The notes under the pieces are model-generated. The model saw nothing but the letters and a program-made list of their open reading frames with translations, searched no databases and was not told where the DNA came from. 27,178 bases of DNA, from positions 1 through 27,178 of IMG/VR virus record IMGVR_UViG_3300033388_002123. One strand, 5' to 3'. Position 1 is the first letter of the stretch. Each line of letters starts with the position of its first letter. Origin of the DNA: a virus. Below, piece after piece: positions 3,383-25,861 of this stretch. Both the position numbers and the translations under genes were made by a program.

Positions 3383-4165
3383 TTATACCTTTCTAGTTAA
3401 AGTGATCGGGATAAGCTTTATTACATCAAGCTCGAAGTCAGACCCGTCTTTGTTAGATAGCTCAAACTGCCAGTATTTAGCTTTTAGTCCTTTACCCATT
3501 TTTATACGAGTTTTACGAATCCCCGTGCTAGTATCTGATATCTCATACCAGTATTCTCTTCTTAACCCATCATCTGCTGATGTGATCGTAGCCTTTAGTA
3601 CTATGTTACCATCGTTCCTAATTCCAAGATACGCCTTATCTATACGCTTGTTTGTACGTATGTCAAAATCTGATATACCAGTCAGTATATGTGCATCTAT
3701 GTCCGCTCCTGCATCGTCCGCTCCATCGAGTAGATGTATCCCGTCCTCCTTAGCCCCGTAATGCCCTCCGTTGAATCTACACATAGAGTTAAAGTCATAT
3801 GCTGTATATTCAGTACGTGCTCCGTTTTCAGTATTTATGACAACACCAGTATAGGTCTCATTATCGAGTACGAATGTAGTAACAAATGCTGCTGTTTCGG
3901 TTAATAAAGACTGGAGTATCTGCTTAGTTGAGTTGCCGTCTGTAAGGTCAAAGTCGTCAGCAACTATAGCACCAACCACGAACTGATTCGCAATCGAGTC
4001 TGTCATAGCAGCTGAGTCTATTACAAGACCTGCTATACCGTACTCCACAGCAGGAGTTGTGTCTATCACGTTGAATGAGTTCGTGATTAAGAAACTTATA
4101 GCTGCCGTGACCGATTCTAGGAAGAATCTAGGGGCCTCAGTTATTGTGCGGGTGTAAGTTGCCAT
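3383..4165 (-). CDS. tail/fibre protein, paralogue of the LamG-domain protein
   Basis: 260 residues. It has no LamG domain, but its last 167 residues align without gaps to the last 167 of the 585-residue protein encoded next, with about 41 differences by hand count. Shared blocks include 'FNSMCRF', 'HYGAKEDGIHLLDG', 'AYLG.RNDGNIVLK', 'REYWYE.SDTSTG' and 'SNKDGSDFELD'. Upstream of this, 'AMTD' and 'DFDL.D' also match, so the duplication extends further N-terminally. The family is not recognised. The shared domain may be an assembly or anchoring module, with the neighbour gaining or keeping a lectin head. The SD is weak (AAGG) and overlaps the end of the preceding gene, which suggests coupled translation. 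Confidence 0.75.
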   Translation of the reverse strand: MATYTRTITEAPRFFLESVTAAISFLITNSFNVIDTTPAVEYGIAGLVIDSAAMTDSIANQFVVGAIVADDFDLTDGNSTKQILQSLLTETAAFVTTFVLDNETYTGVVINTENGARTEYTAYDFNSMCRFNGGHYGAKEDGIHLLDGADDAGADIDAHILTGISDFDIRTNKRIDKAYLGIRNDGNIVLKATITSADDGLRREYWYEISDTSTGIRKTRIKMGKGLKAKYWQFELSNKDGSDFELDVIKLIPITLTRKV

Positions 4166-20377: not shown

Positions 20378-20867
20378 CCGCTTCCTTCACCTCTTCGTAC
20401 TCAGCGCCTTCGATAACGACGCCTGATTCTTCGGAAGCCATCACCAACAGCTCGTCGTCACTAAAATCATCGTATTTAGCAGCGATGCGCTTCTGGGATT
20501 TGTTAAGTGTGATTTTCTTCTCCTCAGGGGCGTAGAAACCGAGCATCTTATTCAGCTCCTGCACCCCTCGGATCATGGCCATTGGGTCTGACATCATGCG
20601 AGCCATATCAATCGCTTCCATGGTCATCGCATGCAGGTCTTCCCTTCTGAGGCTCAAGGTTGTTAGGGTATCAGCCCTAACCCGCTCGATTTCAGCGATG
20701 ACAACAGGGTCGTCCATATATTCGTACGCAGACTTACGCTCTTTAAGTCCGACAGCTTTACCTGCCTGTGCGACATTCAGACCCATCCCTATGTGTTGCG
20801 CGAACTCTAGTTTTCGCTGGTTCACAGAATCTTCGGACTGTGATAGCGCGGTCTCGTTTCTAGCCAT
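20367..20867 (-). CDS. terS: terminase small subunit
   Basis: 166 residues. The N-terminal half contains a helix-turn-helix-like segment ('RKLEFAQHIGMGLNVAQAGK' then 'AVGLKERKSAYEYMDDPVV'), the usual DNA-recognition part of small terminases. The middle is an oligomerisation helix ('MTMEAIDMARMMSDPMAMIR' and 'GVQELNKMLGFYAPEEKK'), and the C-terminus is acidic. It directly precedes and overlaps terL by 11 bases, which confirms the call. It would recognise the packaging site and regulate TerL. No strong SD is visible before the ATG. Confidence 0.85.
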   Translation of the reverse strand: MARNETALSQSEDSVNQRKLEFAQHIGMGLNVAQAGKAVGLKERKSAYEYMDDPVVIAEIERVRADTLTTLSLRREDLHAMTMEAIDMARMMSDPMAMIRGVQELNKMLGFYAPEEKKITLNKSQKRIAAKYDDFSDDELLVMASEESGVVIEGAEYEEVKEADGK

Positions 20868-20921: not shown

Positions 20922-21341
20922 TTAAGCGGCATGCTTATTTTGCTTCTCGCTGTTAGCTTTCTTCGTCAGTATCTGGAGGTTCTCATGTACATGGAGACCG
21001 CAGACATTCTTACCTCGAAACGGAACTACGTGGTCAACTTCGAACTCCTCTCCCTTCGCGTAGCACTCCCTGTATATTTTTAGTATTTTTTTACGGTCCG
21101 CCCACTTAACGAGGGCTTGTTTCTTAGCGCTTCTTCCCTGTCTTATTTTTCTAAGCACGTTGTCGTGGTTTCTCCACGCGGGGTCTGCGCGCCTTTTACC
21201 TGTTTTCCTCTTCGAAGTAGCTTGGTTCTTACATACTCGGCACCTAGACTCTGGGTGGAATGGGAGGGCTTTGCCGTATCTCGAATAATATTCTGAGTAC
21301 GATTTAACTTCATAGCATCTACTACATTTTTTGGTTCCCAT
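20922..21341 (-). CDS. HNH endonuclease next to the terminase genes
   Basis: 139 residues. N-terminal zinc ribbon C6-X2-C9 ... C34-X2-C37. Middle is very basic (about 40-90). The HNH (beta-beta-alpha-metal) motif reads 'FEVDHVVPFRGKNVCGLHVH' (about 100-119), with catalytic-type D103-H104, then H119-E120-N121-L122 and N130. HNH nucleases beside terminase genes assist DNA packaging in several phages (HK97 gp74 type); a free-standing homing nuclease is the alternative. It is the first gene of the leftward block and begins next to the divergent control region. The SD (GAGGT) is somewhat far from the ATG (about 11 bases). Confidence 0.85.
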   Translation of the reverse strand: MGTKKCSRCYEVKSYSEYYSRYGKALPFHPESRCRVCKNQATSKRKTGKRRADPAWRNHDNVLRKIRQGRSAKKQALVKWADRKKILKIYRECYAKGEEFEVDHVVPFRGKNVCGLHVHENLQILTKKANSEKQNKHAA

Positions 21342-21608
21342 ATGCGTAGTCTACCTCACTAAGTGAAAAAGTACAAATTTTTCTTATCTTTACGAGCGAT
21401 CGTCCCCCTCCCCAACGTCAAAAGACAGCCCCCACTTCGGATTCGGACTCTCACCAGCCGTTGGAAGGACCCAAACTACTACCCCGTACCCCCTTCGTCT
21501 CTTAGTCCCACAACACACAGCAGCACCCTACGTACCTTAGCTCATCGCATGCGCTCTGAGCTCTTCAGTCCCCTGTAGTACTTTTAATTCATTCAGGAGA
21601 TACATCAC
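21342..21608. promoter_or_regulatory. divergent control region between late and early blocks
   Basis: 267 bases without a convincing gene, between the leftward HNH gene and the first rightward gene. The left part contains a small palindrome CACTAAGTG (21358-21366). On the leftward strand it has a possible TTGTAC/TAGACT pair spaced 17 bases (weak). The middle is unusually C-rich on the plus strand. The right end holds hairpin element A (21539-21581) and the SD for the first early gene. Promoters for both directions are expected here but none matches the consensus well. Confidence 0.5.
21539..21581 (+). promoter_or_regulatory. hairpin-TTCAGT regulatory element, copy A
   Basis: Ten-base arms AGCTCATCGC and GCTCTGAGCT (8 of 10 pairs) close an ATGC loop. 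One base later comes TTCAGT, then three bases, then CTGTAGTAC. Ends about 27 bases before the first early ATG. Copy B has the same layout and spacing. Confidence 0.65.
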
Positions 21609-21770
21609 ATGACACAATTCGAACAATTAGTTCAACTCCATGCAGAGCTAGCAAACCTTGAGCGTAGCACCCATATAGACACACCAGTTCTCTATAACGG
21701 TGCGAGGGCAGCTATTGAGCGAGATATCAAAGAAGTTGTTAATTCTAGGTTCTACCCACAATCAGCCTAG
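21609..21770 (+). CDS. 53-residue early protein (unknown)
   Basis: ATG with SD GGAG nine bases upstream, starting MTQFEQLVQLHAELANLERS and ending FYPQSA. It is the first rightward gene after the control region and directly follows regulatory element A, so it is likely among the earliest expressed. Predicted helical, with no recognised family or motif. Its stop codon lies inside the left arm of regulatory element B, so the gene and the next control element overlap. Confidence 0.65.
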   Translation: MTQFEQLVQLHAELANLERSTHIDTPVLYNGARAAIERDIKEVVNSRFYPQSA

Positions 21771-21806
21771 TGCATGCGCACTAAGCTATTCAGTTCACTG
21801 TAGTAC
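21764..21806 (+). promoter_or_regulatory. hairpin-TTCAGT regulatory element, copy B
   Basis: Arms AGCCTAGTGC and GCACTAAGCT (9 of 10 pairs) around an ATGC loop, then one base, TTCAGT, three bases, CTGTAGTAC. Position 5 of the stem is T-A here and C-G in copy A, a compensatory change. It lies 32 bases before the 132-residue gene's ATG and overlaps the stop of the previous gene. Confidence 0.65.
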
Positions 21807-21838
21807 ATTTCAATTACATACCTTAGGAGGTATATACC

Positions 21839-22237
21839 ATGGCCAAAGCCACTTCAAAATCAACTGCTAAGAAACCAACCACTGTTCCTGCTCCTTGTTA
21901 TTTGCGTGCTGGTACTGACGCAAAAGACCTGACCTCTGGTCAGATCAACTTCGAAGGCATCGAGTGCACTATGCTCGTAGATGCCAAGGGTAACATTGGC
22001 ATTCATAAGAACGTAAAGACCGCACTTGGCTACGCCGTCAAGCCCATCGCTAAAGGCAACTTTAAAGCTTCCAATAGCAAAGCTGAAGGCGTGCCGGACT
22101 TGAATGGTTTCGTAGAAACCAAGAAAGGTTCTAAGTTCCGCTTAGTTGCTTGGTTCCACGAACAGAATGGCGACGAGTTCTACGTAGTACGCTACGACGC
22201 TATGGTTCGTAAGGGTAAGCTGTTCAGGGTTCAGTAA
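21839..22237 (+). CDS. 132-residue early protein with very strong ribosome site
   Basis: Begins MAKATSKSTAKK with an optimal SD (TTAGGAGGT, six bases before ATG), so high expression is likely. The first 30 residues are Lys/Ala/Thr-rich and probably flexible. The rest is compact and beta-like, with 'FEGIECTMLVDAKGNIGIHK', 'VPDLNGFVETKKGSKFRLVA' and 'WFHEQNGDEFYVVRYDAMVR'. The 'PD..G.....G......W....G..F' pattern recalls small OB-like or DUF736-type proteins, but this is only a resemblance. It could bind nucleic acid; the basic charge fits. It is preceded by regulatory element B and followed by a stable hairpin. Confidence 0.75.
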   Translation: MAKATSKSTAKKPTTVPAPCYLRAGTDAKDLTSGQINFEGIECTMLVDAKGNIGIHKNVKTALGYAVKPIAKGNFKASNSKAEGVPDLNGFVETKKGSKFRLVAWFHEQNGDEFYVVRYDAMVRKGKLFRVQ

Positions 22238-22252
22238 TAAACTTACATCTAA

Positions 22253-22274
22253 GCGGCCAGCTTTAGTTGGCCGC
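22253..22274 (+). promoter_or_regulatory. stable hairpin between early genes
   Basis: GCGGCCA (22253-22259) pairs perfectly with TGGCCGC (22268-22274) around an 8-base loop. No T-run follows; an SD-rich purine stretch (GAGGAAGAGGAG) does. It is more likely an mRNA stabiliser or processing site than a full terminator. Confidence 0.55.
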
Positions 22275-22294
22275 GAGGAAGAGGAGATAAGAAA

Positions 22295-22483
22295 ATGAGA
22301 GAACTTAGTTTTATAGTTAGCGCACAAGTACCTGACGGTGTATCCGAAGAAGAGGCTTGTGACTTCGTGCTTACAGCAGTGAGCGCATGGGGAGGCAGCT
22401 TAGACCCACAAGACTCCATAGCTCACCTGTCAGACTTTTCAGTTCATCTGTATAACCGGGAGAACGAGAATGTTCAATCTTGA
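22295..22483 (+). CDS. 62-residue early protein (unknown)
   Basis: ATG with SD GAGGAG eight bases upstream. Starts MRELSFIVSAQVPDGVSEEE. The N-terminal strand-like segment followed by 'VSEEEACDFVLTAVSAWGGS' helix resembles a small alpha/beta fold, acidic overall. It overlaps the next gene by 14 bases, so the two are probably translated together. No family recognised. Confidence 0.65.
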   Translation: MRELSFIVSAQVPDGVSEEEACDFVLTAVSAWGGSLDPQDSIAHLSDFSVHLYNRENENVQS

Positions 22484-22676
22484 TCCACCGCCGCAAGCAG
22501 CTGTTCAACAGCTCGCAGCTAAAGCGGATATTTACGAAGATGAAGCGATGCGGTATCTCCGCTGCGAGCAACTACGTGAAGCTATCGCTGAAAAACTAAC
22601 CGTGCAAGATTATAATAATCTACTACTTGCACTTATCGATCTTAATGATCCATTTAAATCTAACGGAGTATACTAA
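22470..22676 (+). CDS. 68-residue early protein (unknown)
   Basis: ATG preceded by GGGAG within the end of the upstream gene. Starts MFNLDPPPQAAVQQLAAKAD, with mostly helical sequence after the Pro run and an acidic character ('DIYEDEAMRYLRCEQLREAI'). It overlaps the previous gene by 14 bases. Part of the block of small tightly packed early genes. No family recognised. Confidence 0.65.
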   Translation: MFNLDPPPQAAVQQLAAKADIYEDEAMRYLRCEQLREAIAEKLTVQDYNNLLLALIDLNDPFKSNGVY

Positions 22677-22750
22677 CAGTGTATTTTGAATCGATTACAT
22701 CTAAACCAATTGCTTGGGAAACCAAGCCTATTCAAACTAGGAGAGTTACT

Positions 22751-22993
22751 ATGTTATTCGACTTTAATAAACTATCAGAAGCTGGCTTCAACGTATGTAT
22801 TGACGCCAAAGATGAAAACATAATCCATGTACACGGCAACATGGATAGAGATACTCATGCAGCATTAGTTGAAAAAACACGAGAGTTAGTATCTTCGCTG
22901 TCGTTTATTAACGACATGGAAAAAGACTACGCGATTGAAAAGATCATTAATACATTACAAGAGGCGCAGATTAAATCCCTGCTATTCAGTTAA
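22751..22993 (+). CDS. 80-residue early protein (unknown)
   Basis: The ATG at 22751 has an excellent SD (AGGAGAG). An in-frame GTG at 22679 with GGAG ten bases upstream would add 24 residues and close the gap to the previous gene, so the start is uncertain. The protein is acidic with an alpha/beta look ('FNVCIDAKDENIIHVHGNMD' then helices). Its stop overlaps the next ATG by one base (TAATG). No family recognised. Confidence 0.65.
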   Translation: MLFDFNKLSEAGFNVCIDAKDENIIHVHGNMDRDTHAALVEKTRELVSSLSFINDMEKDYAIEKIINTLQEAQIKSLLFS

Positions 22994-23181
22994 TGTACAT
23001 ACCATCTGAGATCACAGCAGATCAGTGCTTACAAATGCGCGAGAAGTTAAACTGCTCTATGCACGCAGCTAAGCAGATACTAGAGTACGAAGCTCTTCGC
23101 ACCTATCTCTCGCAAGCTACGAGCATTGATGAATTGAAACTCGTCATGCAGGATGTTCTTGACGCGGTGTACTGCCCGTGA
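22993..23181 (+). CDS. 62-residue early protein (unknown)
   Basis: Starts MYIPSEITADQCLQMREKLN; the ATG overlaps the upstream stop (TAATG), so it is probably expressed by coupling, as no clear SD is seen. Predicted helical; 'MREKLNCSMHAAKQILEYEA' has the look of a UBA-like or small helix-bundle segment, but this is not firm. Overlaps the next gene by four bases. Confidence 0.6.
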   Translation: MYIPSEITADQCLQMREKLNCSMHAAKQILEYEALRTYLSQATSIDELKLVMQDVLDAVYCP

Positions 23182-23390
23182 AAACTCCACTCGATGAACT
23201 AGCCGATGCCTGCGAAGAACTGGCTAATTTATTCGGCTCTGAACTTCCTGCGGATATTAAAGCCGTAGAAGAGCAGCTCGCAACAATAGAACGGTTAGTT
23301 CCCCACGTCTTCGAGACACGTCCTTGGTACGTTAGGTTATATCAGAGTATTAAAAAACGAGGATGTGTTCCTTCGTGGTTTGGTAAGTAA
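23178..23390 (+). CDS. 70-residue early protein (unknown)
   Basis: GTG start overlapping the previous TGA (GTGA). Starts MKTPLDELADACEELANLFG and ends with a basic, aromatic tail ('KKRGCVPSWFGK'). The first 45 residues are acidic and helical. It is the last gene of a coupled small-gene run, before a non-coding stretch holding element C. No family recognised. Confidence 0.6.
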   Translation: MKTPLDELADACEELANLFGSELPADIKAVEEQLATIERLVPHVFETRPWYVRLYQSIKKRGCVPSWFGK

Positions 23391-23523
23391 AGTGTGTGTC
23401 TTTTACTGCTGCGCGTTAAGCCTATACCGCTCTGGTGTTTGGATATAATGCGCGCAGCAGTATTCAGTTTACTCGCTAAAAATAATATCCTTTTACACAA
23501 TTATAATCAAAGGAAAATAAGAA
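23391..23523 (+). promoter_or_regulatory. non-coding stretch with long inverted repeat and element C
   Basis: A perfect 12-base inverted repeat, TACTGCTGCGCG (23404-23415) and CGCGCAGCAGTA (23451-23462), encloses 35 bases that include TATAAT (23444-23449). TTCAGT follows at once (23463-23468). ATGCGC, seven bases, then TNTTCAGT is shared with elements A and B at the same spacing. An AT-rich stretch and an SD-like AAGGA come before ATG 23524. It may be a promoter within a cruciform, an operator, or an RNA leader. Confidence 0.55.
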
Positions 23524-23569
23524 ATGAAAAGTCGAAAGACCTGTATATATAGCAGTTGAGCATACTCAC

Positions 23570-23740: not shown

Positions 23741-23743
23741 ACT

Positions 23744-23778
23744 AAAGCCCACATGCTACCCAGTATGTGGGCTTTAAT
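23744..23778 (+). terminator. intrinsic terminator, 11-bp stem
   Basis: AAAGCCCACAT (23744-23754) pairs perfectly with ATGTGGGCTTT (23765-23775) around a 10-base loop. The T-run is short but the stem is strong. The A/T flanks make it usable in both directions. It separates the small-gene block from the membrane-protein block. Confidence 0.8.
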
Positions 23779-25804: not shown

Positions 25805-25861
25805 AGCCTTCCAGCTTGCGCACTATATCAGCGCACACGTCTACAGCTGGAAGGCTTTTTT
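25805..25861 (+). terminator. terminator with an internal hairpin
   Basis: Outer stem AGCCTTCCAGCT (25805-25816) and AGCTGGAAGGCT (25845-25856), 12 of 12 bp, followed by TTTTT. The loop itself contains TGCGC/GCGCA (25817-25821, 25831-25835). The 3' arm carries GGAAGG, an SD-like sequence for the mini-frame at 25863. Confidence 0.75.

Follow-up and report, generated by a model that had tools for sequence, protein, structure and literature searches.

Genomic context of the early region

The window, that is, the whole 27,178-nt stretch of DNA analyzed here, corresponds to positions 1-27178 of a 33,978-bp IMG/VR virus record (labelled L025 here). Leftward structural genes begin at a terminase small-subunit-like gene at 20867, and a rightward set of small early genes starts at 21609 (Table 1). 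A tandem paralogous segment was observed within the leftward structural genes (1621-2118 and 3383-3880, 71% DNA identity). The window portal is 44% identical to the portals of Pseudomonas phages KPP25 and phiR18, the primase/helicase-like gene shows 37% identity to its KPP25/phiR18 counterpart, and the gene layout is that of KPP25. From these identities and the common layout, the window phage is classified as a distant KPP25-like podovirus. At the DNA level, blastn against phages found no relatives of the window, and an exact DNA search of viral contigs with the window hairpin returned zero matches. No relatives were found for the 132-aa product of the second early ORF. Many relatives also conserve the CACTTCGGATTCGG block, which lies next to the terminase genes on the upstream side of the hairpin and is frequently accompanied by GAGTCTC repeats.

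Table 1. Features of the early region, with positions in the window.
Feature	Position	Strand	Remarks
HNH/endonuclease VII-like gene	20922-21341		
CACTTCGGATTCGG in C-rich stretch	21433-21446 (stretch 21402-21446)	+	Candidate cos/packaging site, by position only
Copy A hairpin	21539-21562	+	AGCTCATCGC - ATGC - GCTCTGAGCT, 8/10 pairs; from sequence and fold
TTCAGT, copy A	21564-21569	+	
CTGTAGTAC, copy A	21573-21581	+	Counterpart of TTGTGTAGT in relatives
First early ORF, 53 aa	21609-21770	+	Downstream of copy A
Copy B hairpin	21764-21787	+	AGCCTAGTGC - ATGC - GCACTAAGCT, 9/10 pairs
TTCAGT, copy B	21789-21794	+	
CTGTAGTAC, copy B	21798-21806	+	
Second early ORF, 132 aa	21839-22237	+	Downstream of copy B
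Copy C, doubtful member	23404-23468	+	13-bp perfect stem, then TTCAGT; without CTGTAGTAC

Hairpin units in the window

A preliminary description of this DNA had reported a repeated module upstream of the early genes, and its layout of stem, ATGC loop, one base, TTCAGT, three bases and CTGTAGTAC was recovered in identical register in copies A and B. The two copies lie 225 bp apart with 85% identity across 39 nt, and the stop codon of the first early ORF sits within the left arm of copy B. CTGTAGTAC is absent elsewhere in the 34-kb record, in which TTCAGT-N3-CTGTAGTAC has exactly two exact matches (A and B). The 10-base stem arms are present but imperfect, with two T.C mismatches in copy A and one C.A mismatch in copy B. 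Similarly, the proposed compensatory change exists at pair 5 (C-G in A, T-A in B), but other differences between the copies break pairs, so that A and B alone provide weak covariation. Single-strand RNA folds gave a modest gain over shuffles (z scores of -1.6, -2.2, and -3.6 for A, B, and C, respectively), and the minus strand of copy B gives the better pairing. The distance of about 60-80 bases to a start codon holds for A (70 nt) and B (75 nt), but the ATG at 23524, 61 nt past copy C, opens only 11 codons (23524-23559) with a fair ribosome-binding site (RBS). This short ORF may encode a leader peptide or be no gene at all.

A systematic scan for stems ending just before each TTCAGT of the record yielded copy C and one further case. 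Copy C pairs its right arm with a distant left arm, as previously described (arms 23404-23416 and 23450-23462, 33-nt loop), and TTCAGT follows directly after the stem, but CTGTAGTAC is missing. The further case is a candidate fourth copy, D, located beyond the window (record 33863-33975, L025 13364-13476), with a perfect 13-bp stem, an 81-nt loop and then TTCAGT; the record ends 3 bases later. A stem matching C or D in strength ends at 0.05% of positions, and both exceed 99.9%. Because C lacks CTGTAGTAC and the record stops before the downstream part of D, we consider them doubtful members. Other strong hairpins were seen inside the early region at 23743-23776 and 25805-25856, the second being terminator-like with TTTTTT after it.

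Beyond the window, the record also carries an 80-nt tmRNA-like RNA (record 32299-32378, L025 11800-11879; Rfam tmRNA, 68 bits, E 2e-26). It has the tRNA-like domain only, a 14-nt loop replacing the 308-nt mRNA-like domain. Carried by a phage, a mini-tmRNA of this kind might compete with trans-translation in the host. A related phage (G001, near 45.2 kb) harbors a permuted tmRNA (L183 1573-1863; Rfam RF04321, 130 bits), and Y RNA-like (YrlA) matches below threshold lie close to it.

The hairpin unit in related phages

The corresponding loci of relatives were reached via TerL relatives, and their divergent region holds the hairpin unit. KPP25-like first-gene leaders consist of a 7-12 bp hairpin, usually 13 nt, TTGTGYAG, an RBS and ATG, while the hairpin sequences are unrelated between phages and between copies in one phage. 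For example, the stems GGATTCGGG-aaaagca-CCCGAATCC, GCGTTCGAA-aaaagca-TTCGAACGC, TCGGATTGGG-aacagca-CCCAATCCGA, AACGACGGG-taaacca-TCCGTCGTT and GCCGCCG-caag-CGGCGGC are all followed 13 nt on by TGTGTAGT, with the RBS and ATG after it. The KPP25 unit reads GTGATTCGC-gga-GCGAATCAC, 10 nt, TGTGTCTT. The two Kochitakasuvirus leaders compared (KPP25 and CRPAP1904) have identical hairpins, these genomes being too alike to inform on covariation. As in the window, two copies with differing stems were found in L004, L009, L035, L054, and others. Loops span 3-9 nt in the relatives (4 nt in the window), and the conserved partner stands 8-14 nt after the stem. In the window copies, the spacing is shorter, at 9-10 nt, and CTGTAGT takes the place of TTGTGTAGT.

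Among 26 units, each of the seven basal stem positions occurred with all four Watson-Crick pair types. Pairing at these positions reached 97%, compared with 32% when right arms were re-dealt, but this set was picked for good hairpins, which partly explains the 97%, and the count is therefore better evidence for free stem sequence than a test of structure. Pairs were counted by script rather than with a covariance model, because the MAFFT alignment of the modules was not structural. The order stem, motif and RBS-ATG was seen 19 times, and a reversed motif once. The motif-to-stem distance is mostly 10-13 nt, whereas the motif-to-RBS distance spreads over about 18-39 nt; this fixed stem spacing and variable RBS spacing indicate that the motif belongs to the hairpin and argue against a translation element. 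TTCAGT was dropped as the conserved core, being common to the window copies only and not kept in relatives. By comparison among these phages, it is instead the CTGTAGT / TTGTGYAG sequence that is conserved along with the hairpin.

Conservation of the stem, on which the preliminary description had staked its proposal, was found in many relatives. Since the unit recurs at the same place, with unrelated stems, in many of these phages, we consider it a real control element. None of the Rfam 15 covariance models matched at A, B, or C, and a literature search confined to open-licence PMC texts found no description of the hairpin unit, which is apparently an undescribed control element.

Independent leaders and position of the units

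Independent leaders were gathered by the conserved CCACTTCGGATT block only, blind to hairpin and motif. In contrast to the 26-unit set, the resulting 36 new non-redundant leaders represent an unselected test of the unit. A strong hairpin was present in 25 of them (4.1 in shuffles) and the full unit in 8/36 (0.14 in shuffles), several again with the 13-nt spacing. The hairpin occurred without the motif in 17/36. In ten 20-kb early regions, all 13 units fell inside the first 3 kb. The first early gene, with no upstream gene to terminate, also bears the unit.

RNA-level and DNA-level signals

In the leader hairpins of relatives, taken as a class, sense-strand mispairs comprised 81 G.T (G.U) vs. 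22 A.C. Flank composition predicts about half, and the bias stands after allowing for composition, which suggests selection at the level of the early RNA for the leader-hairpin class. The motif-bearing hairpins alone gave 12:5 (p 0.14, not significant). Unfiltered 20-kb early regions showed no G.U bias because their hairpins are mostly intragenic; once restricted to intergenic hairpins, the trend came back weakly and was not significant. We also observed T enrichment at +2 to +7 past the stem. In L049, a terminator-like hairpin with a GCCTTTTC tail, and then TGTGTATC, stands ahead of each of the first early genes, and several units with a T tract resembling standard terminators were found in L049, L053, and L045. 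Most first-gene hairpins have no T run; at A, B, and C, no T run follows the stem and no forward terminator was called. As stated in the preliminary description, no standard host promoter was found at A, B, or C, where sigma-70 -35/-10 hexamers are absent. No early promoter was identified upstream of the hairpin.

A proposed leader element of immediate-early mRNAs and its alternatives

Of the readings offered earlier, we now favor the RNA leader. With somewhat better than even confidence, we propose that the unit is an RNA-level leader/intercistronic element of immediate-early mRNAs, attenuator-like, in a large KPP25-like phage group. What is conserved, judging from the comparison of leaders, is stem structure rather than stem sequence, together with a U-leaning spacer, TTGTGYAG, register and position. 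The host RNA polymerase would transcribe across the unit, and the hairpin would fold behind it co-transcriptionally. A terminator-like or pause-like attenuator would thereby set the transcription entering each immediate-early gene, and attenuation could possibly be released by a phage or host factor. The precise role may be attenuation, antitermination or mRNA processing/stabilization. This reading is favored by the class-wide G.U bias, the presence of some plain terminators and the absence of sigma-70 boxes at the units. Several observations count against it, namely the C.A mismatch of copy B (a wobble on the other strand), the non-significant G.U bias in motif-bearing hairpins and in the second set, the lack of an identified upstream early promoter, the 17 leaders without the motif, and the shorter spacing and CTGTAGT of the window copies.

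The main rival is a hairpin-containing promoter for the host polymerase, in which TTGTGYAG/CTGTAGT would lie near -10 with the hairpin upstream, each immediate-early gene having its own start. Such a promoter would agree with units that precede separate genes only in its initial 3 kb of early region, with the usual 13-nt register to a conserved octamer, with an ATG distance that would yield a normal short 5' leader, and with the absence of any other promoter at the units. However, the motif is unlike a sigma-70 -10 box, TATA-like boxes beside units in relatives are rarer than in shuffles, the free stem sequence leaves no double-stranded binding site, and the class-wide G.U bias points to RNA. 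We regard this promoter as unlikely, though worth keeping in view. Ordinary intrinsic terminators or mRNA-stabilizing hairpins between early genes, with the motif as a separate feature, seem less probable still. The standard-looking T-tract units of L049, L053, and L045 would suit them, but the first gene bears a unit although nothing upstream needs terminating, most first-gene hairpins are devoid of a T run, and unrelated stems keep one fixed register to the motif.

The preliminary description had also suggested an N4-like promoter, in which a virion RNA polymerase would initiate at the hairpin, extruded in the template strand. Hairpins near the early-region start, numbering two or three in each genome as they do in N4, and the better minus-strand pairing of copy B are in line with this suggestion. 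On the other hand, the recommended search for a phage RNA polymerase gene revealed no N4-type enzyme: with E values up to 10 allowed, neither N4 mini-vRNAP nor the RNAPII large subunit had a relative in the 12 records searched (the window's own record and 11 relatives; the former is a 34-kb fragment whose absence of a polymerase is weak evidence by itself), while the N4 positive control matched. A PF00940 (single-subunit polymerase) search matched 0/13 records, the control genomes being likewise unmatched. In the 2050-aa large virion protein of phiA008, the sole domain found was SNase (nuclease), with no PDB relative. Loops of 3-9 nt and the stem-to-motif ruler also differ from the 3-nt loop and -17 to +1 layout of N4, and this version, which is not supported, is very improbable. 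Even less credible is a chance repeat, with A and B derived from one recent duplication and their pairing accidental. Two copies in one genome could represent a single duplication, and copy A has two mismatches, but the recurrence of the arrangement in many relatives and in the independent test set already contradicts it. Finally, attC-like and transposon-end readings were dropped, since the surroundings of the units showed no recombinase and, in the relatives, the unit is bound to gene starts.

Whichever of the RNA leader or the host-polymerase promoter is considered, a broader proposal can be made, which we hold only tentatively. A large podovirus group without its own RNA polymerase would mark its immediate-early genes by a structure-coded signal for start or entry of the host polymerase, made of a free-sequence hairpin and a fixed ruler to TTGTGYAG. 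It would constitute a new promoter class or an autonomous pause/antitermination RNA. In open-licence PMC texts, we found no account of how KPP25-like early transcription starts or is apportioned. The hairpin and motif at the first-expressed genes offer a concrete and portable target, which would tell whether a phage steers the host polymerase via RNA or DNA shape, without its own polymerase or a standard promoter.

Comparison with known systems

The units resemble intrinsic terminators and hairpin-stabilized pauses in their GC-rich hairpin and T-leaning tract, and the hairpin-to-motif spacing is on the order of bacterial RNA polymerase pause spacing. They differ from a standard terminator by the conserved TTGTGYAG downstream and by their placement before the first gene. 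The HK022 put RNA, of about 70 nt with two stem-loops, acts in antitermination on the host polymerase (PMC9378689). Like put, the present unit would be a structured RNA near the early transcript start of a phage using the host RNA polymerase, for which the distance to a downstream site would matter (PMC9378689). Unlike put, the unit, as known here from sequence, has a single short hairpin joined to a conserved octamer and is repeated several times within a genome. The N4 vRNAP promoters have a 5-7 bp stem and a 3-nt loop, with the start about 5 nt after the stem (PMC4496689). As in the N4 early promoters, hairpins stand before the first early genes and variable stem bases are tolerated if paired (PMC4496689), but no vRNAP was found here, loops are 3-9 nt long and the stem base lies about 13 nt from the motif. 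The ESAS of cluster K mycobacteriophages have sequence-conserved arms with SigA-like hexamers (PMC3203893, PMC11373665). The unit resembles ESAS/SAS in being an inverted repeat that stands ahead of some of the non-structural genes, in multiple copies and close to the start codon (PMC3203893, PMC11373665), whereas its arm sequence is free and sigma hexamers were not found. Hence, HK022 put, the N4 promoters and the cluster K ESAS each share features with the unit, and each fails one tested defining feature.
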